NCBI RefSeq assembly: GCF_900186535.1
Contig: NZ_FYDE01000005.1
Span: forward strand, 472,895 to 536,894
From: Marasmitruncus massiliensis
GTDB taxonomy: Bacteria > Bacillota > Clostridia > Oscillospirales > Ruminococcaceae
Direction: 5' to 3'
Length of the DNA stretch: 64,000 nucleotides
In this document: piece after piece, positions 31,708 through 41,020 of the stretch
How the letters are laid out: each line of letters opens with the position of its first letter
Numbering within the stretch: the stretch's first letter is position 1
Notes under the pieces: model-generated
Told to the model about the DNA's origin: nothing
Databases searched by the model: none
Seen by the model: the letters and a program-made list of their open reading frames with translations, nothing else
Program-made: the position numbers and the translations under genes

Positions 31708-32341
31708 CAAAGCATTTGCCGGACTGTTTCTGCCTGGTGCATCTATAACGACTCTGCCCTGCATGCCGTTTTGTATTCGGTATTTCATCAGAAGCTAAGG
31801 CTAAAACATTAAGAATGGAAAGCACTGATTCATGGTGGAACACAAGTCATCAATGCCCCCAGCATTTATAATGCTGGGGGCAAAAAGTTATTGCAAAATT
31901 TACCAGCGCGTGGTATATATATCCCTATAGAGTTATATTATGACAACAAAAAAACTCCCACAGCATACCGATTGCTGACAACAACCGGTATGCATCCGCC
32001 TTAAAGATGTGTTACACGCTCGTCTTTAGGTTCTCTCTTTTTTTGGTGTTAACGTCTGCACGGCGTTTTCACATACATAAAACTGAATTACCCATACAAA
32101 ATGGATACAAAGTGCTTTTGCTCAGCGTGCATTCTGCCCACCAAAAGCTAAAATGTTATACGGTAACGACTGTGCATACGCTCTAAGATGGCCATAACCT
32201 GCTGTATTGCTAATTTAGGCTGAGGAGTAGGAACAGATTTTGAGCTGGATGGGAAATCATATTCTACGTATGTATCTATGAAACGGCAGGGCGTTGTTTG
32301 CCCAATGCCCTGCCGTTTACATACTGAATTCAATAGAAAAT
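31708..32341. other. gene-poor interval between LysR gene and island
   Basis: Holds a perfect 12-bp inverted repeat GCCCCCAGCATT/AATGCTGGGGGC (31855-31881) with no T tract. A second pair GCATACCG/CGGTATGC (31963-31993) is followed on the minus strand by a T7 run and could be a terminator. A third pair AAACGGCAGGGC/GCCCTGCCGTTT lies at 32281-32318. A 61-codon minus frame (32148-32333) is not recognised and overlaps the third hairpin. No convincing gene. Confidence 0.5.
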
Positions 32342-32353
32342 TGGTGCGGGTAA
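32342..32353. repeat. putative island attachment repeat, left copy
   Basis: TGGTGCGGGTAA is identical and in the same orientation to 42907-42918, the 3' terminus of the tRNA-Leu gene including its CCA. Similarity continues weakly (TTGAACC at 32370-32376). It could mark the far end of an element integrated at the tRNA 3' end. Confidence 0.5.
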
Positions 32354-32590
32354 AACGAACCAGTTTGAACCCTCACACTCTAGTAATTTTAAATCACTAA
32401 ATAAATTGGGCCAATAATTAAAAAATTCGGGAGTTACTATAGTTTTATTGAACACAACAAATTTGCATTAAGTGTTTAGCCATGACTATATATGTAAAAT
32501 AAACTTACTTAATTTGTATAATAAAAGTTTAGACGTTAACATGAAATCGCATTCTATGATTGATAAGTATCACATAAAAAGTAAAATCGA

Positions 32591-33460
32591 TTATAAAATT
32601 TCTATAAAATTACAAAATGCAGAAAAAGGGACAATTACTTCCTGCCAATTTCCTCTCCCATGATTCTTTGGTATATGTTTACTCATTTCATCGACAGAAA
32701 GAATGCACAGTTTTTTAGCGCTTGAAAACGACCATAAATGAAACTGAAAGTGCTTAGCCGATGTCGCAGTATTCCATTCATTTTTTGATAACCGGAGTAC
32801 CGCTTTTCCTATTGGCAGAGATGAAGCCTTAACTTCAATTAAAAGCCTGTCATGATTTGAAGGAGAAACAACTGAAATAATATCATATCCAGTCAAGTTC
32901 GTTTCAATCGATTCCCATATAGGCTTGAATGCAGTGCGCTTATGCTCAAAAATAATAGATTCATATTCTCCTTTTCTGCCTGTCTCGAGCACTTCAACCC
33001 CTCTTTGATAGCGAATACATTCAGCTAGGTTATCCCACCATAATATACAAGATTCTGTAATATCATCAGATAACAATAATGCTTCCAAGAAACAACGGCG
33101 TTCATCATTTGACATAAAAATAGAAGCTTCTCGACGACCACTTGGAACCCTATAGACCCATGCTGGTCGACACTTTAAAGAATATGTCATTAACATACGC
33201 CGGAGCAAATCCATAGTTAATTGATTTTCGTTAAAAGAAGCCTTTAGTAAATTACCATCCTCAGTAATGGTAATATTTGAAGTTTTTTCATTAAGGATTA
33301 TCCATTCGCAATTTAATGCCAATTCTATTACATCTTTTGCATTTGCATTAGAAATATATGCATATTCCTTGATTTGAATTGCAGTCTGTAATTGCAATTT
33401 ACTTATTTGATCTAAAAGACTTAAAACAGCAGAAAACATTCCTAACGAAGCACGTGTCAT
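32591..33460 (-). CDS. DUF3883 domain protein (PD-(D/E)XK nuclease-like)
   Basis: A 289-residue protein. The C-terminal third carries the DUF3883 pattern GYDIISV (191-197), LLIEVKAS (206-213) and VLRLSKNEWNTA (221-232). The Asp of GYD and the Glu and Lys of EVK match a PD-(D/E)XK nuclease core. Residues 1-150 are helical and not recognised, perhaps a recognition domain. DUF3883 is frequent in anti-phage and restriction loci. The ATG overlaps the helicase stop (ATGA, 33457-33460), so it is the last gene of a coupled operon. AT-rich. A nuclease effector role is inference. Confidence 0.75.
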   Translation of the reverse strand: MTRASLGMFSAVLSLLDQISKLQLQTAIQIKEYAYISNANAKDVIELALNCEWIILNEKTSNITITEDGNLLKASFNENQLTMDLLRRMLMTYSLKCRPAWVYRVPSGRREASIFMSNDERRCFLEALLLSDDITESCILWWDNLAECIRYQRGVEVLETGRKGEYESIIFEHKRTAFKPIWESIETNLTGYDIISVVSPSNHDRLLIEVKASSLPIGKAVLRLSKNEWNTATSAKHFQFHLWSFSSAKKLCILSVDEMSKHIPKNHGRGNWQEVIVPFSAFCNFIEIL

Positions 33461-35253
33461 GATTCATCACCGCTAAAAAAATAGTTAAGCACGGCTTTGG
33501 CGTCTTCTGGAGTAATATCAGAAGATTCATCGCCAAATCCTTCAAAATCATAAGGTATAGTATCTACGATTAGTGAAGGATCATTTAGTGCCTCAGACAT
33601 TTTAGCAACTTTATCTTGTAGCCTCCTGCGAACAACTTGATCAATAGTACCACTACATTCTACAATTTCAACAATTGGATGTTGATTTTGTTTTAGTCCT
33701 AATCTATGAATCCGATCTTCAGATTGTAAATAATGTGCCGCATTGAAAGATCTATCAACATAAATGGCATATTGACACACTTTATGAAGACTTATTCCTT
33801 CCGATGCTGCAGATGGATTGGCCACTAAAACCATTGCATTGGGATCGTTATGAAAACGCTTAATTTTTCCTTCCCTTGTATCATCTATGTTTTCATCACC
33901 AGTATCAACTCCACCATGTATATAATCTGCTCCTAAATCTTGCAAACGCTCAGAAATCAATTCAACATTTTCCACAAACGTTGACCAGATAATAACTTTT
34001 TTCCCCTCAGAAGCAAGTATTCGAGCACGCTTACATGCATATTCAATTTTAGGACCGTTACATGTTAAGAGTAGCTGCCCCATCCTTGGATCAAAGGCGT
34101 AATTCATATCATTGGCTAAAAGCGCTGGATTAGAGACAAATTGTAATATTTTCATAGAGCTTTTCCCAATATGGCGAAGGGCGTATTTAGAATCATCACT
34201 TAAAGCACTGTTGAGTTGTCGTTTTAACTCTGATTTTAATACGCCATAAATTTTTAGCTGTATTTCATCCATATTAAGCAAAATTAGCCGATGTTCCAGC
34301 TTGGGAATACCTAGCTGATCTTTTGTTGTGCGCACAAATATTGGCTGCATTAGATTTATCGCTGTATCTTCTGTTACAGCTTTCTCTGGATATAAAAACT
34401 TAAATTGCGGCACCAAGTCTTTAGCGCTTTGCGGCATTGGAGTACCACTCATAATAAGTTTTTTTGTCGGCAAGTAGGACACTTCTAAAATCGATTCAGC
34501 AGTTACTCCAAGTTTTCCACTTTTAATACGATGGCTCTCATCTAAAAACATATAGACAGAACTTCGGGTTAGTTCTTGAGAAATTAATTTTTTTACCTTA
34601 AGGAATTGTTGGTAAGTAATAAGCATAAATCTAGGATTTTCAGCAAGTAAATTTCTAATTCTTGATTCTCCACCTGTAAGTCTTATGAATTTATCAGTTT
34701 CAGATGGAACACATATTTCCAATTGCTCATCCCAAGCACCGAAAGCATTTTTAGGTGCAACCACTAGCAATCGCTCTTTAAGATTGGAATTGCAATAAAA
34801 ATATGCTAATGCTTCTGTTGTCTTACCTGCGCCGGGTACAGAAAAAGTTGCTCCAGCAGGTAATGTTATTAGCTTTCGAAGATTACTTAGTTGATTAGAT
34901 GTCAAATTTCTTGCAAATCCAGCTGACGCCAAGTGCATCTTAACAAATTGCTCGCTTGCTAATCCTTTTTTAACGGCAACATTATATGATAATGTTTGAG
35001 CATTTTTTAGTAATTCAGTGGCTTTTTGTGAAATGCTTAAATTAACTTGATGAACCTGTACAAAGGATGCGACATCTCCTTTTATACTTAAGAAATTTCG
35101 CCATGCAAATTGCATTGATACACGGTTTTGTATTATTTCTGGGATATAATCACCAATAATACGCTTTAACGATTTCCATTCTAATGACTCTGGCGTATCA
35201 GTGTATATTACAACATTACCTTGATGCCAATTATAATCAATTTCAATTTTCAT
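33457..35253 (-). CDS. SNF2-like superfamily 2 helicase/translocase
   Basis: A 598-residue DNA-dependent ATPase. An N-terminal region of about 115 residues precedes the motor. Walker A is VPGAGKTTE (139-147), motif II FLDESH (236-241), motif III MSGTPMPQ (268-275), motif V ASEGISLH (483-490) and motif VI SEDRIHRLG (511-519). These are SNF2-family hallmarks, implying translocation on duplex DNA. It overlaps both neighbours (11 bases with the ParB-like gene, 4 with the DUF3883 gene), so stoichiometric expression is likely. Such motors feed nucleases or modify target access in several defence systems. Confidence 0.88.
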   Translation of the reverse strand: MKIEIDYNWHQGNVVIYTDTPESLEWKSLKRIIGDYIPEIIQNRVSMQFAWRNFLSIKGDVASFVQVHQVNLSISQKATELLKNAQTLSYNVAVKKGLASEQFVKMHLASAGFARNLTSNQLSNLRKLITLPAGATFSVPGAGKTTEALAYFYCNSNLKERLLVVAPKNAFGAWDEQLEICVPSETDKFIRLTGGESRIRNLLAENPRFMLITYQQFLKVKKLISQELTRSSVYMFLDESHRIKSGKLGVTAESILEVSYLPTKKLIMSGTPMPQSAKDLVPQFKFLYPEKAVTEDTAINLMQPIFVRTTKDQLGIPKLEHRLILLNMDEIQLKIYGVLKSELKRQLNSALSDDSKYALRHIGKSSMKILQFVSNPALLANDMNYAFDPRMGQLLLTCNGPKIEYACKRARILASEGKKVIIWSTFVENVELISERLQDLGADYIHGGVDTGDENIDDTREGKIKRFHNDPNAMVLVANPSAASEGISLHKVCQYAIYVDRSFNAAHYLQSEDRIHRLGLKQNQHPIVEIVECSGTIDQVVRRRLQDKVAKMSEALNDPSLIVDTIPYDFEGFGDESSDITPEDAKAVLNYFFSGDES

Positions 35254-36538
35254 TTAAATTATTTAACCAAGCCAAAATAATATTAACTTTTTGTTGAATA
35301 GTTTTTAGATGCTTAGCCACACCTTGAGTATTTATATCTGAGGCGTCTAGCCCAATGGTAGCCGCCTCTGTAAGCAACGAAGCAGCTTTGCTTACTTGAT
35401 TCAACAAAAAATTACCGGCATCCCTTTCTTGTTTTATTTGTTGTTGTGTTGTAATAATATTTGTAGTTATCTTCCTAACAAGATCAAGATTATTGCTATT
35501 CTTTATAACTGACGCAACAATAGCTGGCTTATCAATAGGTATATCTCCGGGATCAGCTAACAAAGAAATTTCTTCAGTTTGCAAAGTAGTTGGTGTTATG
35601 TTAAGTTTTTCTTCTAAACCCTGAGCGATCTTATTCAGATTTTCTGCGATGTTTGGTATGACTTCATATAAACGCCCATCATCTTTTGATCCTTCAACAA
35701 AAGCAAAAGACAATGTTTCAAATAATTCTTTTTCTCCTGAGGTGTCAAGCCTTTTTCTGCCTTTAACAATCTTTTCAAATGCATAATAATCTTTATCTAC
35801 CAAAGACCATTCATCAGGATGACCTTTCTTTTTTAAATAAGTTTCTGCATATTCGCGACATTCAATTAGTAAATTCATGGCTTGAACACTTTTATCAAGG
35901 GACTCAGCCACATCTTTTGAAGGAATACCTTGTGCGATATCTTCGCTTGCCATTAATGCTATAGCGTGCCATCTATATTCCGCACGCATCGAGTTTTGAA
36001 CTTGAAGCCTTTTTTCTAAGTCTCTAATCGCTCTTTCATCACATTCGGGCAAAATAGCCATTTTAATTGTTTCGAAGTGTTTATATTTTATCCTGTCTGA
36101 ATAATAAAGTTCACGCCAAGCACAGAGCCTGCGATTCCCATTTACAACTACACCGGAATTAGTTGAAATAATGGGTTCTGTCTGATGCAGATTATCTGAC
36201 CGAAAGGCTTTTAACAAGCCTTCTTCTTCAACAAGTTGTTTGAGTATTTCATGCTGAGCGTATTGGGCGTCTATTGAATCATGATCTTTGATAAAAATAT
36301 CTCGTTCAATGTCAGGATTTTTGACAAGATACTCTTGTTGGAATGGTCTAGTTCTTCCATTTGCCAATCTATAGACGGCAAATTCTATTCTAACTTCAAT
36401 CACAGGAAGTGCACGATATTCACCCATAAATTCAACGTAATGTGATGTTTTAGTTTCATCACATTTTTTACGAATCTCTGATTTTCTTTTAAGAAATGGT
36501 GCCCCAAAATTATTCAATTCTTTAACTTCAAAACCCAT
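35243..36538 (-). CDS. ParB-like domain protein in defence-type operon
   Basis: A 431-residue protein. The N-terminal ~150 residues resemble the ParB/Srx fold, with GVVVNGNRRLCAWREL (129-144) standing for the VVDGNRR box of ParB-like nucleases and CTPases. The middle part has a helix-turn-helix-like segment (GIPSKDVAESLDKSVQAMNL, about 193-212). The C-terminus (about 330-431) is helical with coiled-coil character. It could be a DNA-loading clamp, a specificity factor or a nuclease. AAGGAG lies upstream of its ATG. AT-rich like its neighbours. It is not near an origin or a ParA gene, so a chromosome-partition role is unlikely. Confidence 0.7.
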   Translation of the reverse strand: MGFEVKELNNFGAPFLKRKSEIRKKCDETKTSHYVEFMGEYRALPVIEVRIEFAVYRLANGRTRPFQQEYLVKNPDIERDIFIKDHDSIDAQYAQHEILKQLVEEEGLLKAFRSDNLHQTEPIISTNSGVVVNGNRRLCAWRELYYSDRIKYKHFETIKMAILPECDERAIRDLEKRLQVQNSMRAEYRWHAIALMASEDIAQGIPSKDVAESLDKSVQAMNLLIECREYAETYLKKKGHPDEWSLVDKDYYAFEKIVKGRKRLDTSGEKELFETLSFAFVEGSKDDGRLYEVIPNIAENLNKIAQGLEEKLNITPTTLQTEEISLLADPGDIPIDKPAIVASVIKNSNNLDLVRKITTNIITTQQQIKQERDAGNFLLNQVSKAASLLTEAATIGLDASDINTQGVAKHLKTIQQKVNIILAWLNNLNEN

Positions 36539-36552
36539 ATATTTTACACTCC

Positions 36553-37011
36553 TTATTCATAAAATCCAACCAGTAAAATAGGCATAGTTATTACTTGTTT
36601 GAAAATAGGGAGTTCCCGTGATAGTCGTTCAAATGATGCAAGATTGCCACCAAGCTTTTTTGCAGCACTAGACATGGGGACGATTATTATACCTACACGA
36701 ACAATCTCTTTCATATAAAGCGTTTGCAATTTTAAAAGATCTGCATATGTACGGCTTACATTGCCTGTTTGTAAACACAGACCTATACCGTGCAACATAG
36801 ATGTTATTGATATTTTTGAAGAGTTGTCAAGCCTGACTGAATCTGACCATCCAAATTGTTTTAATTTGGAAGATAATGACTTGTTAATAGCGGATGCAGC
36901 ATAGGATTTTACATCTATATTGGTTGACTGAAAAATGTCCTTAATATCTTCAACTATGCCATGTGGTACTACATCTAGTCCACTTCTATAACTTTTAAGT
37001 TTGATCATCAT
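36553..37011 (-). CDS. restriction endonuclease-like protein (BglII/BamHI-type), possibly inactive
   Basis: A 152-residue protein next to a DNA methyltransferase. The segment GLCLQTGNVSRTYADLLKLQ (77-96) followed by GIIIVPM and SFERLSRELPIFKQ resembles the core of small type II endonucleases of the BglII/BamHI kind, which have E-x-Q-x-GN. Here the acidic position is Cys79, and His74 sits where an Asp would be expected, so catalysis may be lost. It could be a regulatory or DNA-binding subunit. Its stop is 15 bases before the ParB-like ATG, and its ATG overlaps the methyltransferase stop (37008-37011). Confidence 0.6.
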   Translation of the reverse strand: MMIKLKSYRSGLDVVPHGIVEDIKDIFQSTNIDVKSYAASAINKSLSSKLKQFGWSDSVRLDNSSKISITSMLHGIGLCLQTGNVSRTYADLLKLQTLYMKEIVRVGIIIVPMSSAAKKLGGNLASFERLSRELPIFKQVITMPILLVGFYE

Positions 37012-37970
37012 CCGTCAAGCCCTTCTTTCTTCCACTCGTCGGGAACCTTGGATAAGCCGCTTTTTGTATGATCATAAATTGGTTTATTAAATGGTCGGTA
37101 TTTTATTGTACCAGCAATTGAATCATTCAAACGCTGCTCTCCAATTTTTACGTAGCTATTGTCCAATTCACATCCCCAAAAAGACCGGTTATGTATTATT
37201 GCAGCTACTCCTGAAGATGCAACACCACAAAATGGATCAAACACAAGCTGCCCTTCATTAGTTAATGCCAATACTAAACGTTCTATTAGCCCTACCGGAA
37301 ATTGACACGGGTGGGCAGTCTTTTCTATATGGTTTCCCTTTACATTAGGTACTTCCCATACATCTTCTGGGTTTTTCCCTTTAGGATTACCAGAAAGTTT
37401 ACCTTTGTTTTCTCCTTTAAAACTTTTCTTGCCTGGATATTTTGCGGGGATGCGAACAGGATCAAGATTAAAAACATAACTGTCAGTTTTAGAATACCAC
37501 ATTACTACCTCATATCTACCGCTAAATCGTCTTTTAGTATGCAATCCATGTCCAAAATGCCACACGATGCGATTTCGCATTTTCATGCCTAATTCCTTAA
37601 AGATAGGTGCCATTTCTATGTCTAGAGGTAATATGCTTCCATTATCTACATAATTTCCCACTTGCCAGCAAATACTTCCAGTGTCTTTTAATCGAATAAA
37701 AATTTTATTAATAATTCTCTTTTGCCATTTTAAATACTCTTCAAGTTGCATTGGTCTTTCGTACTCTTTTCCGATATTATATGGGGGAGATGTAACCACT
37801 AAATCAAAAATTGGCTCTTGAGGTAAGCAGTCTAAAAAGGTTTCTACATCTCCGTTAAAAATTATATTTTTTTGATTATCAATGTTTATTGCATTAATAT
37901 TCTTATTTGGCAAAATATTTACAGAAGAGAATTCGAATTCACTTTTGGTTAACTTATTAATATCGCTCAT
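37008..37970 (-). CDS. type II DNA methyltransferase (amino-group, beta class)
   Basis: A 320-residue S-adenosylmethionine-dependent DNA methyltransferase. Motif IV VTSPPYNIG (59-67) precedes the AdoMet-binding motif I VFDPFCGVASSG (243-254), the order of the beta class, which methylates N4 of cytosine or N6 of adenine. The intervening FGHGLHTKRRFSGRYE and SGNPKGKNPEDVWEVP with KTAHPCQFP are a conserved region in many type II modification enzymes. It is the first gene of the five-gene operon, after a good AAGGAGAT site, and should protect host DNA against the rest. Confidence 0.9.
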   Translation of the reverse strand: MSDINKLTKSEFEFSSVNILPNKNINAINIDNQKNIIFNGDVETFLDCLPQEPIFDLVVTSPPYNIGKEYERPMQLEEYLKWQKRIINKIFIRLKDTGSICWQVGNYVDNGSILPLDIEMAPIFKELGMKMRNRIVWHFGHGLHTKRRFSGRYEVVMWYSKTDSYVFNLDPVRIPAKYPGKKSFKGENKGKLSGNPKGKNPEDVWEVPNVKGNHIEKTAHPCQFPVGLIERLVLALTNEGQLVFDPFCGVASSGVAAIIHNRSFWGCELDNSYVKIGEQRLNDSIAGTIKYRPFNKPIYDHTKSGLSKVPDEWKKEGLDG

Positions 37971-38266
37971 TTTTTAATATCTCCTTATACTGAGCACCTT
38001 TAATATCTTAAATTTGATACATCATTGCATTTAATCAATATTATTTTAACACAGATCATTGTCAAGTAAAAGGGGATTACTTACAACTTAAGAGCATATT
38101 TAATAAGAGTTACAATGCGGTGAAAGGAAAAGTGCCGATATCAAACAATAGACCAAGCCAGTTGTATCCGTTTCTACATTTTTATAAAATGCAACGCTAT
38201 GCGTATCAACAAGAAAAATAAATCTATATTCTAACCTTGAATCTAAATTCAAGGAGGTTAACCCCT
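37971..38266. promoter_or_regulatory. divergent promoter region of the island
   Basis: AT-rich stretch between the leftward methyltransferase operon and the rightward DUF6809 operon. It must hold promoters for both. No sharp -35/-10 pair was identified by eye. Its right end forms the hairpin at 38235. Confidence 0.5.
38235..38254 (+). promoter_or_regulatory. hairpin overlapping the ribosome binding site of the DUF6809 gene
   Basis: CCTTGAAT and ATTCAAGG form a perfect 8-bp stem with a CTAA loop. The 3' arm includes the first four bases of the AAGGAGG ribosome binding site (38251-38257), so folding would reduce translation. It could also be a DNA operator. Confidence 0.6.
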
Positions 38267-38611
38267 ATGTCAAAATCTATCCTGCACCAACTTTATTACG
38301 GCGACCTTAGTCCATCCCAGACGATCACGCCCCCGGACCCCCAATATGAAGAAGCGCAAACCAAGGCCAGCAAACTTCTGTATCAGCTGCACAAAGAATT
38401 ATCAGACGAGCAGTTTCAACTGCTGGAACGCTATTTGGAATACCGCTCGGATTATTCTGACATGGAACTGTCCGAAACGTTTGCGGAAGCATTCAGGATG
38501 GGGGCTCAGGTGGCATTCGAAATACAAAACAGAGATGTTTCCAACTTCGGAAGCATCTCTGTTTCTGTTTGCGGGAGGAATGAGAATGATCAGGATCAGC
38601 ACATGGAGTGA
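38267..38611 (+). CDS. DUF6809 family protein
   Basis: A 114-residue soluble helical protein beginning MSKSILHQLYYGDLSPSQ, with ELSDEQFQLLERYLEYRSDY and a FAEAFRMGAQVAFE segment, the usual DUF6809 outline found in Clostridial mobile elements. The last 20 or so codons overlap a strong hairpin (38527-38560) and may not be conserved. Start chosen by AAGGAGG at 38251. First of four short rightward genes. Function unknown. Confidence 0.75.
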   Translation: MSKSILHQLYYGDLSPSQTITPPDPQYEEAQTKASKLLYQLHKELSDEQFQLLERYLEYRSDYSDMELSETFAEAFRMGAQVAFEIQNRDVSNFGSISVSVCGRNENDQDQHME

Positions 38612-38936
38612 CGTGCAATCACTCAAGCCGGATAATGACCCCGGCCTGTATTTATTGCTGTCAAACCGGTTTAAACAGCTGCATCAAATATTCTGCTCCA
38701 ATAGTTCTGTACCATTGGAGCGGTTTTCATTGCAGGAATATGGGGAACTGTTTGTCGTAGAAAACGGTTCGGAACTCACAGGCAAACTGTTTGAACAGGT
38801 CACCAAGCATACGTTTAGCCAGAAGAATTATTATGTTGCTGTTTTCCTCTTTAACAGTGAGGTTTGCAGCGACTTTTTGATTCCTGCGGAAAACTTGAAC
38901 GACCATCAAATTCAACAATTAGAACAGGAGTTATAA
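38586..38936 (+). CDS. hypothetical protein of the island
   Basis: A 116-residue acidic protein (MIRISTWSDVQSLKPDNDPG at the start, ending LNDHQIQQLEQEL). No family recognised. GGGAGGA at 38573 fits the ATG at 38586 rather than the ATG at 38580. It overlaps the end of the DUF6809 gene by 26 bases in another frame and is two bases before the DUF960 gene, so it belongs to the same transcript. Confidence 0.6.
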   Translation: MIRISTWSDVQSLKPDNDPGLYLLLSNRFKQLHQIFCSNSSVPLERFSLQEYGELFVVENGSELTGKLFEQVTKHTFSQKNYYVAVFLFNSEVCSDFLIPAENLNDHQIQQLEQEL

Positions 38937-38938
38937 CC

Positions 38939-39244
38939 ATGTTTCAAAACCCACGCTACATGACCAGAGGTATTGCAGAAACACTTCCCCTCTCACTCCA
39001 GATCATTCTATGGAGCATGATAGACAGCCTCAAACAATCGCAGGAGCTGGACTACCTCCAAGTGTTCAGCCTGTCTGCTGAGCGCAACCCTGACGGTGTC
39101 CTGCAACAGCGCATTGTACATTCGCAGGAGGTACCGCCGTATCAAAAGACGATTATGGTTGCCTGTAAATCGCCTGTGGACTGCAAGGTGTTTTGCATCG
39201 ACGATGAGACGCACGCCACCATGCTCTATGCAGATGAATATTAG
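38939..39244 (+). CDS. DUF960 family protein
   Basis: A 101-residue protein with the DUF960 layout: MFQNPRYMTRGIAETLPLSL, then QIILWSMIDSL, DYLQVFSLSA and a conserved IVHSQEVPPYQKTI. Common on plasmids, phages and integrative elements of Firmicutes. Function unknown. AGGAG lies upstream and the gene is tightly packed in the four-gene cassette. Confidence 0.8.
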   Translation: MFQNPRYMTRGIAETLPLSLQIILWSMIDSLKQSQELDYLQVFSLSAERNPDGVLQQRIVHSQEVPPYQKTIMVACKSPVDCKVFCIDDETHATMLYADEY

Positions 39245-39260
39245 AAAGGAGCTTGATACT

Positions 39261-39788
39261 ATGAACGAAAAAAGCATCATCCGAACGGAAGCATTATATA
39301 ACGATGAAAAGACACACCGTTTCAGCCTGAAGAAATCCTGGGATAATTCCAAACCCTCAGCCAGCATTATCATGATCGCTCCGTCTGTACGGGCCAATGA
39401 GATTGCTATGGACATTACCAGTCTATACGTGCTCAACAACTGTTATCAGCTTGGGTGCGGTTCTGTGGACATCCTCAATCTCTATTCAAAATTGGACGCA
39501 AACCCATTTGAAAATTGTCCTGAAAATGATGAATGGATTTTAAAAAGCTGCCATAAAGCGGATCAGGTAATTCTCGGATGGGGCAAGGGGCAGACACAAA
39601 AATCAGTGGATAACCGTATTCAGGAGGTTCTGAACATGCTGAAACCTTACAGGGACAAACTGTTTGAAATTGCGGATGTCAACGGGAAACGGGGTTTTCA
39701 TCCGCTGGGAACCAGCGTACGGCTAAGATGGTATTTGGTACCCTATCAATACCCGGAAAAAGAAAAACAGGAGCAGAAATCCGAATGA
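39261..39788 (+). CDS. DUF1643 family protein
   Basis: A 175-residue protein. The core reads RFSLKKSWDNSKPSASIIMI, APSVRAN, VDILNLYSKLDANP and VILGWGKG, matching DUF1643. Its biochemical role is unknown. AAAGGAG precedes the ATG. Last gene of the cassette, convergent with the XRE regulator four bases on. Confidence 0.82.
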   Translation: MNEKSIIRTEALYNDEKTHRFSLKKSWDNSKPSASIIMIAPSVRANEIAMDITSLYVLNNCYQLGCGSVDILNLYSKLDANPFENCPENDEWILKSCHKADQVILGWGKGQTQKSVDNRIQEVLNMLKPYRDKLFEIADVNGKRGFHPLGTSVRLRWYLVPYQYPEKEKQEQKSE

Positions 39789-39791
39789 TTT

Positions 39792-40172
39792 CTATGCTCC
39801 TGTTTCTGTGTTCCGCAGCATGTTTTTAACGCGCAGATATTGCAGAAATTCCTGCCGGTCGGATTCACTCCATTTAGAATAGTCGGATAACAACCGCATA
39901 ATCTCCAATCCATCCTCTGAATAGCATAGTTCCCGGATTATATCGGAAATCCATTGTGGGACTTTATCTGCATACGCCTCTTCTCCCATGAGATAGGCCA
40001 CGGATGTGTCCAATGCATCCGCAATTGCTTCCAAGCGTTTTAACGATGGTTTTGTGCGCCCCTGTTCAATATCACAGAGGAACGATGGGGACAGCGCAGT
40101 TTTTTCTCCCAAAGCTTTCAGCGTCATTTTCCGCTGTTTGCGTAATGTTTTGATGTGTGAGCCGACTGTCAA
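39792..40172 (-). CDS. XRE family transcriptional regulator with TTG start
   Basis: A 126-residue repressor-type protein with a Cro/CI helix-turn-helix at the N-terminus (HIKTLRKQRKMTLKALGEKT then ALSPSFLCDIEQGRTKPSLK) and a short helical C-terminal domain. The ORF is open upstream to 40385, but the only good ribosome binding site (GGGGAGGA) precedes a TTG at 40172, which also gives the normal family start. It probably binds the palindrome at 40256. Possible control switch of the island. Confidence 0.82.
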   Translation of the reverse strand: MTVGSHIKTLRKQRKMTLKALGEKTALSPSFLCDIEQGRTKPSLKRLEAIADALDTSVAYLMGEEAYADKVPQWISDIIRELCYSEDGLEIMRLLSDYSKWSESDRQEFLQYLRVKNMLRNTETGA

Positions 40173-40255
40173 CGCTGATTCCTCCCCACAATTCGGTATG
40201 ATCGTATTGATCTTAGTATAGCAAAGAATCTTTCCTGTGTAAACTGCAATGATAA

Positions 40256-40270
40256 TACGATAATATCGTA
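40256..40270. promoter_or_regulatory. palindromic XRE operator
   Basis: TACGATAATATCGTA is a perfect 15-base palindrome between the two divergent XRE genes. A related sequence (AATACGATCATACCGAAT on the minus strand) lies at 40189-40206, nearer the leftward gene, so two adjacent sites may exist. Confidence 0.6.
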
Positions 40271-40362
40271 CCGAATCCGTTATAACGTAGAAAGTGTATG
40301 GTTGTCCTTGTCTAATATTCTGTATATACGTATAATTGATCTTGTGGCAGAGGTGGTGACAA

Positions 40363-40554
40363 ATGAGTATTGGACAACAGATCAAAAATATCCGGCAGGA
40401 ACGGCATCTATCGCAGAAACAGCTTGCGCAAATGGCTCAAATCTCCCCATCCTATCTATGTGATGTGGAAAAGGGGCGATGCAATTGTTCTATTAAAATT
40501 CTGAAAAGAATCTCATTGGCGTTGAACGTGGAAATCGCGGAACTATTAAAATAA
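40363..40554 (+). CDS. small XRE family helix-turn-helix protein
   Basis: A 63-residue protein that is all helix-turn-helix: SIGQQIKNIRQERHLSQKQL then AQMAQISPSYLCDVEKGR. AGAGGTGGTG precedes the ATG. Divergent from the longer XRE regulator with the palindrome between them, the layout of a phage-like CI/Cro switch. Confidence 0.85.
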   Translation: MSIGQQIKNIRQERHLSQKQLAQMAQISPSYLCDVEKGRCNCSIKILKRISLALNVEIAELLK

Positions 40555-40580
40555 CAGACAGAAATGAGGAGACTACATAC

Positions 40581-40856
40581 GTGGATTTATATGCGCTGAT
40601 TTGCCTGATTCTGGGGCTTCCCATCGGGCTGTATTTTTATCACCTGATCAATAAGTACTTTACAATCTATTATTTTGGCTGCGGCGCGGTCTGGGGATTA
40701 TTCTGGGGATGCCTTGTTGCGGGAGCGATTATCATGTTTTTGCTGTTGGAATTTCTGAGAGCATTGGCAATCCCTGTCGCAATATTCTTTCTGGTGCTCT
40801 GGTTGTTTACGCGCGGAAAGAAAAAGAATTCGGACGATCAGCAGCAATCCAAATAA
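40581..40856 (+). CDS. small membrane protein of the island
   Basis: A 91-residue protein from a GTG start (ribosome binding site GAGGAG). It has hydrophobic segments at about 4-20, 34-56 and 58-77 and a charged tail (RGKKKNSDDQQQSK). No family recognised. Follows the small XRE gene by 26 bases and is closed by a terminator. Confidence 0.65.
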   Translation: MDLYALICLILGLPIGLYFYHLINKYFTIYYFGCGAVWGLFWGCLVAGAIIMFLLLEFLRALAIPVAIFFLVLWLFTRGKKKNSDDQQQSK

Positions 40857-40861
40857 CAAAC

Positions 40862-40887
40862 GCCCACAGCTTTTTATGGCTGTGGGC
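40862..40887 (+). terminator. terminator-like hairpin
   Basis: Stem GCCCACAGC/GCTGTGGGC with an eight-base loop. The following T run is poor (TATTATCAT), so it is either a weak terminator or an RNA-stability element. Confidence 0.55.
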
Positions 40888-40915
40888 TATTATCATACGG
40901 AAAGGTGTTTATAAT

Positions 40916-41020
40916 ATGGAATTTATCCTGTTTTTTCTTGGATTTTTACTGACTTTGATGCGTCCCAGCCAAACAAAATTGAATATCGCTTTGAAAAGAC
41001 TGCTGACCGGACAGAACTGA
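40916..41020 (+). CDS. 34-residue ORF fused into the dispersed repeat
   Basis: Reads MEFILFFLGFLLTLMRPSQT and ends KRLLTGQN. The first 11 codons are unique and hydrophobic. The rest is the dispersed repeat read in a different frame from copy 1. AAAGGTG lies upstream. It looks like a chance fusion at a recombination joint. Confidence 0.3.
   Translation: MEFILFFLGFLLTLMRPSQTKLNIALKRLLTGQN

Follow-up and report, generated by a model that had tools for sequence, protein, structure and literature searches.

Described restriction systems and the Marasmitruncus operon

In the CglI and NgoAVII restriction systems, the nuclease also recognizes the target site. Judged by analogy, these systems are the closest in working principle to a five-gene operon that we describe here from a 64,000-nucleotide stretch of the Marasmitruncus massiliensis genome (the window). 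We lean towards the view that this operon is an ATP-dependent restriction-modification (R-M) system: a retired endonuclease of type II would read the site, and a ParB-like protein, an SNF2 motor and a NOV_C protein would act on the DNA. According to two papers (PMC4267653, PMC5737866), CglI and NgoAVII likewise have a methyltransferase, a helicase-type ATPase and a nuclease that are not fused to one another, and their nuclease belongs to the PLD superfamily. Pfam gave no PLD match in the five operon proteins, in which, unlike in CglI and NgoAVII, recognition and cleavage apparently lie on two proteins with the ParB-like protein between them.

The first two genes resemble type II systems of the BstYI/BamHI/BglII class, in which a related amino methyltransferase (51-55% identical in three BstYI-type pairs) adjoins an endonuclease of the family. 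That class keeps its acidic ligands (10/10 controls), whereas the operon type does not (0/35), and to the first two genes the operon adds three more conserved ones, among them those for a motor and for a nuclease of another kind. Other described systems share parts of this set. R-M operons in which an SNF2 helicase is fused to DUF3883, termed a novel restriction endonuclease (REase) domain, appear in passages of PMC3710099, and SWI2/SNF2 operons with other nucleases in passages of PMC2292703. The former center on a HEPN/DUF499-type ATPase and the latter on MORC-type ATPases; a ParB-like protein and an acid-less type II endonuclease, both present in our operon, are not among the gene sets given in those passages. 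BREX-related systems also combine a methyltransferase, a Swi2/Snf2 helicase and a nuclease, and their helicase carries an inactive REase domain beside an active C-terminal one (PMC12839542, in part). As that portion of the source describes them, they differ from the operon in having DUF499/BrxC-type ATPases and another N6-methyltransferase, their inactive REase is a domain of the helicase rather than a member of the BamHI family, and ParB has other roles in them. Taken singly, the link between SNF2 and DUF3883 and the inactive REase fold within a restriction machine are both already in print.

The preliminary description had not recognized the combination, and indeed no named system was matched in the libraries searched. 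PADLOC returned models of methyltransferases, REases and parts of helicases, together with weak matches to DruH (0.027) and TmtA (0.023); for the operon methyltransferase this covers the best 25 of 61 matches. Among the matches listed, the five proteins include neither PglZ nor a BrxC/DUF499-type ATPase, the BREX hallmarks, and neither DrmB nor DrmC of the DISARM core; the SNF2 protein overlaps the BrxHI/BrxHII helicase model (1.1e-4), and its helicase region the DrmA (3.5e-8) and DrmD (3.8e-8) models. Core genes of Zorya, Druantia and Dpd were not found among the PADLOC matches listed, those to DpdE (5.9e-15) and ZorD (4.1e-14) coming from the SNF2 protein only. We found no description of the five-gene set in an openly licensed literature collection, which contains no bioRxiv preprints and lacks most papers published by subscription.

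The five open reading frames (ORFs) run head to tail on the minus strand from 37970 down to 32591. The G+C content is 0.34-0.37 in kilobases 32001-38000 and 0.41-0.55 across ten kilobases on each side; the ORF calls and this profile bear out the preliminary description of five leftward, AT-rich genes in GC-richer surroundings. The first two genes overlap by 4 bases, a gap of 14 bases follows, and the last two junctions are overlaps of 11 and 4 bases, as described before except that the second junction had been put at 15 bases. The five gene assignments made there are also supported, four by Pfam and the exception, the ParB-like protein, by the fold of its model. A promoter scan gave results near chance.

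The endonuclease-like protein and its methyltransferase

The second gene (36553..37011, minus strand) encodes a protein of 152 amino acids (aa) that matches Pfam Endonuc-BglII (PF09195) at 5.1e-13. A profile built from 25 relatives matched BstYI (5.1e-7), BamHI (3.8e-4) and OkrAI (0.019) in the PDB. In the HMMER alignments the catalytic glutamate of BstYI and BamHI faces cysteine or glutamine in the operon-type proteins. The window copy has T70 and C79 at the two acidic metal-ligand positions and Q81 at the position of BamHI E113, while QTGN is kept.

The loss is general. We aligned 35 distinct system sequences with 10 other PF09195 members as controls. The first ligand column holds phenylalanine in 20, threonine in 14 and asparagine in one of the system sequences, versus aspartate in seven and glutamate in three controls; the second holds glutamine (27), cysteine (7) and alanine (1), versus glutamate (8) and aspartate (2). 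Both acidic ligands are thus gone in 35/35 operon-type homologues and present in 10/10 other members. Thirty-four of the system sequences represent 38 loci, identical last 110 residues being counted once. The remaining one (locus L079) and the 10 controls came from a PF09195 search made independently of the operon, which yielded 12 places in 11 of the 398 genomes of the phylum, the window's own included; among these 12 the acids are absent only in the window copy and in L079, both of which lie within the five-gene operon. The flanks of the 10 acid-bearing members (4-13 kb) contain no ParB-like and no NOV_C match, and a homologous methyltransferase lies directly beside the endonuclease in 3 of the 10. 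Beside one such intact BstYI-type pair, at a distance of about 2.6 kb, we observed a large SNF2-type protein (L088:4355-8020, minus strand).

In a phylogenetic tree the acid-less copies are separated from the others by a branch supported at 100/99; the program warns of long branches. The most conserved stretch of the small protein (Q81, G83, N84, R87, D91 and K94) falls in the region that carries the active site and the DNA contacts in this family. The protein appears to be a type II endonuclease deprived of its cutting site, which corrects the endonuclease-like reading of the preliminary description. With both acidic ligands missing from every copy compared, its likeliest role in the system is to read the site and not to cut. 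A type II restriction enzyme seems to have been turned from cutter to site reader, in one event on the tree, and kept as such across phyla.

The first gene (37008..37970, minus strand) encodes a beta-class amino DNA methyltransferase of 320 aa. It matches Pfam N6_N4_Mtase (PF01555, 1e-49), the MTase_II model of PADLOC (7e-82) and RsrI methylase in the PDB (2.5e-30), and carries the motif TSPPY. By blastp it is 54.8, 50.8 and 54.1% identical to its counterparts in L087, L088 and L089, each of which adjoins an intact BstYI-type endonuclease; one of these three endonucleases is a BstYI orthologue (8.6e-92), and the methyltransferase beside it is 55% identical to that of the operon. BstYI recognizes RGATCY. 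Given this kinship (50.8-54.8% identity) with enzymes whose partner is an intact endonuclease of BstYI type, the operon methyltransferase likely marks a GATC-centered site. Extra ORFs with high methyltransferase-profile scores occur downstream of two complete five-gene loci (L027:8239-9501 and L036:13338-16036); the system may be accompanied by an additional methyltransferase related to the first.

The SNF2, NOV_C and ParB-like proteins

The fourth gene (33457..35253, minus strand) encodes an SNF2-type ATPase/translocase of 598 aa with matches to SNF2-rel_dom (PF00176, 1.8e-17) and Helicase_C (PF00271, 8.6e-8). Its motifs are intact: GAGKT at 141, DESH at 238, SGTP at 269 and QSEDRIHRLG at 510. 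Among 58 homologous ORFs longer than 450 aa, a count that includes duplicates, G.GK[TS] is present in 58, DE[ASC]H in 56 and the motif VI pattern in 54. The last gene (32591..33460, minus strand) encodes a putative nuclease of 289 aa that matches NOV_C/DUF3883 (PF13020) at 8.3e-8. E165, G191, D193, E209 and K211 are invariant in all 18 aligned homologues, which were picked from 55 ORFs matching its profile, and E165, D193, E209 and K211 belong to a PD-(D/E)XK-like site, in which D193, E209 and K211 make up an intact D...ExK. It is the sole operon protein with an intact nuclease site and, judged by these residues, likely the nuclease of the system, in agreement with the preliminary description.

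The third gene (35243..36538, minus strand) encodes a protein of 431 aa. An AlphaFold2 model built with 46 relatives in the alignment (mean pLDDT 90.9, pTM 0.84) shows a ParB-fold core followed by a helical and coiled-coil C-terminal part. In Foldseek all of the top 20 matches are to structures of ParB, Noc or KorB, and several of these contain CDP or CTP analogues; the best is 6sdk (E 9.7e-4, probability 1.00). The protein therefore models as having the ParB/Noc/KorB fold. It differs from the ParB/Noc/KorB clamps in its gene company and in having no sequence-profile match: NCBIfam gave a chance-level match only (E 0.03), PADLOC and PHROGs none, and a single-sequence search of the PDB none. 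NGNRR (133-137), R62, Q119, E175, Q179, Y188 and W190 are invariant in the 46 sequences.

We propose that the five proteins would work together as follows. The methyltransferase would mark host DNA at a GATC-centered site, and the retired endonuclease would bind the same site when unmodified, without cutting it. The bound small protein would then load the ParB-like protein, the modeled fold of which is that of CTP-gated sliding clamps, and the complex of the two would engage the SNF2 motor. Moving along foreign DNA, the motor would bring the NOV_C nuclease, which would cleave it. The restriction-like logic of the preliminary description is supported in outline; a role in defence and the clamp or sensor role that it gave to the ParB-like protein are presumptive. 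A variant with the same recognition and motor, in which the NOV_C protein is released on all cellular DNA once unmodified phage DNA is sensed, strikes us as improbable. No finding confines cleavage to the foreign molecule, and separate sensor and effector genes are, as a matter of general knowledge, typical of such abortive-infection systems; the dedicated methyltransferase and the translocating motor, however, would argue for action on the foreign molecule.

Linkage, front ends and surroundings of the operon

To find relatives, we scanned the genome_contigs collection with six aligned ParB-like proteins, starting from a single ParB peptide motif. The scan, which is not a census, gave at least 80 stretches with the peptide pattern and at least 54 loci; gene calls in the fetched loci are the longest ORFs found by script, and gene types were assigned by local profiles. 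The complete order of methyltransferase, endonuclease, ParB-like, SNF2 and NOV_C genes occurs in 28 of 54 loci, namely 27 and L032, where an additional NOV_C gene lies upstream; the same order with broken frames is seen in L040. By record title the complete loci come from, among others, Mogibacterium, Ruminococcus, a metagenome-assembled genome (MAG) of Bacteroidia, many Alphaproteobacteria, Gammaproteobacteria, Opitutaceae and Latescibacterota, the taxonomy of MAG loci being subject to binning errors. The five genes accordingly occur together and in the same order across phyla, the outcome on which the preliminary description had made its proposal depend. The operon is also complete in G042 (L008) and G588 (L080), on a Paracoccus plasmid (L004, with an endonuclease identical to that of L037) and on three of four contigs of a viral collection (L064, L065 and L067), which repeat endonucleases of genome loci; the fourth (L066) ends at the contig edge. 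A ParB-like match was found in 3 of 391 genomes of the window's class, its own included, and a DNA search for the operon in 10 other genomes of the genus found none. The operon is thus uncommon and its distribution scattered, a pattern that one would expect if it is transferred as a cassette.

The five proteins give concordant distances: over 30 loci r is 0.88-0.98, with none of 500 permutations as high, and within a mostly proteobacterial clade of 25 loci it is 0.75-0.97 (again 0/500). Part of this agreement reflects common ancestry of closely related loci. These data bear on the possibility that the first two genes are a plain type II pair, with an endonuclease still cutting through an unusual active site, that happens to lie beside an independent ParB-SNF2-NOV_C system. 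The two genes do share ancestry with BstYI-type pairs, and the other three are found without them at other loci. Against this stand the loss of both acidic ligands in 35/35 copies, the single gene order in 28/54 loci over several phyla with agreeing protein distances, and the finding that none of the 10 intact family members lies beside the trio, and we regard such a chance neighborhood as highly unlikely.

The remaining loci are partial. L034 has the endonuclease, ParB-like and SNF2 genes and is ended by the contig; the ParB-SNF2-NOV_C trio without the first two genes is found in 13 loci, including L039, also ended by the contig; L053 has the ParB-like and SNF2 genes; and eight loci have the ParB-like gene alone. 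Two of these eight, L047 and L060, end at the contig edge, and L060 holds a cytosine-5 methyltransferase. Nine neighbor proteins from five remaining loci of this kind include no restriction genes, and the ParB-alone loci were set aside on this ground as another subfamily. Three cyanobacterial relatives of the ParB-like protein (L058, L063 and L043) have neither SNF2 nor NOV_C, and all have a 7TMR-HD or PGM1_C/ATP-grasp gene near the ParB-like gene.

A second branch of 15 loci (L005-L007, L048-L052, L054-L057, L059, L061 and L062) consists of the trio without the methyltransferase and endonuclease genes of the operon. A cytosine-5 methyltransferase lies within 14 of them, the exception being the 10-kb locus L005; the queries were taken from L006, L007 and L049, and Pfam confirms the proteins of L049 and L054. 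In 13 of the 15 loci (12 and then L057, with L056 and L061 outside the comparison) we aligned a protein of about 280 aa that is encoded upstream and has no detectable similarity to the acid-less endonuclease. This protein (L049:5529-6380 and relatives) is rich in conserved cysteine, histidine and tryptophan residues and occupies the gene position of the acid-less endonuclease. Two members matched no Pfam family and one PDB match was at E 0.97; the AlphaFold2 model (pLDDT 75.5) had its best fold match at E 0.021 and none at 0.001. Since the trio stands behind differing upstream proteins and methyltransferases, it looks like a general effector with exchangeable recognition parts.

The gene position shared by these dissimilar proteins also helps to weigh whether the acid-less endonuclease, instead of reading the site, might regulate or inhibit the nuclease until it is released by unmodified or phage DNA. 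Its small size and the adjoining methyltransferase gene would suit such a role, and a catalytic loss fits any binding function. The peak of conservation, however, is at the active site and the DNA contacts of the family, and a dissimilar protein at the same position in the cytosine-5 branch (13 aligned) suits a site-specific module better than a universal inhibitor; regulation or inhibition thus seems unlikely. In another locus, the ORF L009:1883-4543 joins a PLD nuclease domain, at its N terminus, to the SNF2 motor and lies beside a ParB-like gene and a cytosine-5 methyltransferase; a 200-aa protein at the start of that locus has no Pfam match, and its PDB matches are at chance. L009 is a natural nuclease swap and a possible bridge to CglI/NgoAVII-like systems, for which more than 95 homologues with the PLD nuclease fused to the ATPase are reported in PMC4267653.

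We suggest, tentatively, that the operon may represent a separate type of ATP-dependent R-M system, in which the acid-less endonuclease would recognize the sequence and load a CTP-gated ParB-like clamp, the clamp would pass the DNA to the SNF2 motor and the NOV_C nuclease, and the front end would be exchangeable. If true, it would tie restriction to the ParB clamp principle of chromosome segregation, with a modular ParB-like, SNF2 and NOV_C effector behind different recognition front ends, and would be the first restriction system using ParB loading and sliding, as far as the openly licensed literature shows.

Several observations weigh against the site-reading mechanism and its clamp. The activity of the NOV_C protein is read from its residues. 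For the ParB-like protein, a single Foldseek match has an E-value below 1e-3, the TM-scores over the whole chain being low; no ParB sequence match was obtained, the best in Pfam (E 0.097) being to an unrelated family; and its profile found 15 helical or designed proteins in the PDB and no ParB. Among the candidate CTP-binding motifs, NGNRR, E175 and Q179 are invariant, and the asparagine of ENxxR, the classical ParB motif, is not conserved. As this asparagine is not kept and the fold scores are weak, CTP gating is uncertain, and use of CTP by the protein is put forward as a hypothesis from the model. ParB/Srx proteins are also described as nickases or NTPases in PMC12839542. At locus level, the 19-kb locus L013 has the system without a methyltransferase match, and L022 has the methyltransferase, ParB-like and SNF2 genes and lacks the endonuclease. 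Finally, the flanks are rich in mobile-element genes and not clearly in defence genes, a statement made with no control set. The flank survey covered with Pfam 105 of 124 listed ORFs from 20 loci, excluding ORFs that match the five operon profiles, extra methyltransferases among them. The 25 of 80 families listed, each in at most 2 of the 105 proteins, include conjugation, relaxase, resolvase and integrase families as well as HipA, AbiEii-type AAA, DUF4435, KAP, N6_Mtase, ArdA and ArdC.

Such flanks, the ParB fold of the model and the occurrence of relatives of the ParB-like protein on five plasmid records might point to a cassette for the maintenance or partition of mobile DNA, in which the ParB-like protein and its helpers stabilize plasmids or islands. 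Conjugation genes occur in some flanks, and on the Kozakia plasmid L005 an annotated ParA lies about 1.3 kb past the trio, beside a replication gene. ParA, however, is outside the set conserved over 28 loci (no profile search was made for it), the conserved set holds a methyltransferase, an SNF2 motor and an intact nuclease site, and the window's contig is 2.09 Mb long; most genome_contigs records are draft contigs for which plasmid or chromosome is not stated. We give a partition function a very slim chance.

The operon in the window has repeated sequence on either side. A 2.8-kb stretch beside it (38164-40961) has a 99.3% identical copy at G000:C1:144821-147618, near an apparent type I-C CRISPR-Cas locus judged by eye from a Cas3-like helicase and Cas-like ORFs. 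To the left, 32033-32324 has an 86% copy in G000:C2 (L104); further copies, less similar, occur at other places of the genome and in G774. With repeated stretches on both sides, the operon thus sits between two repeats.

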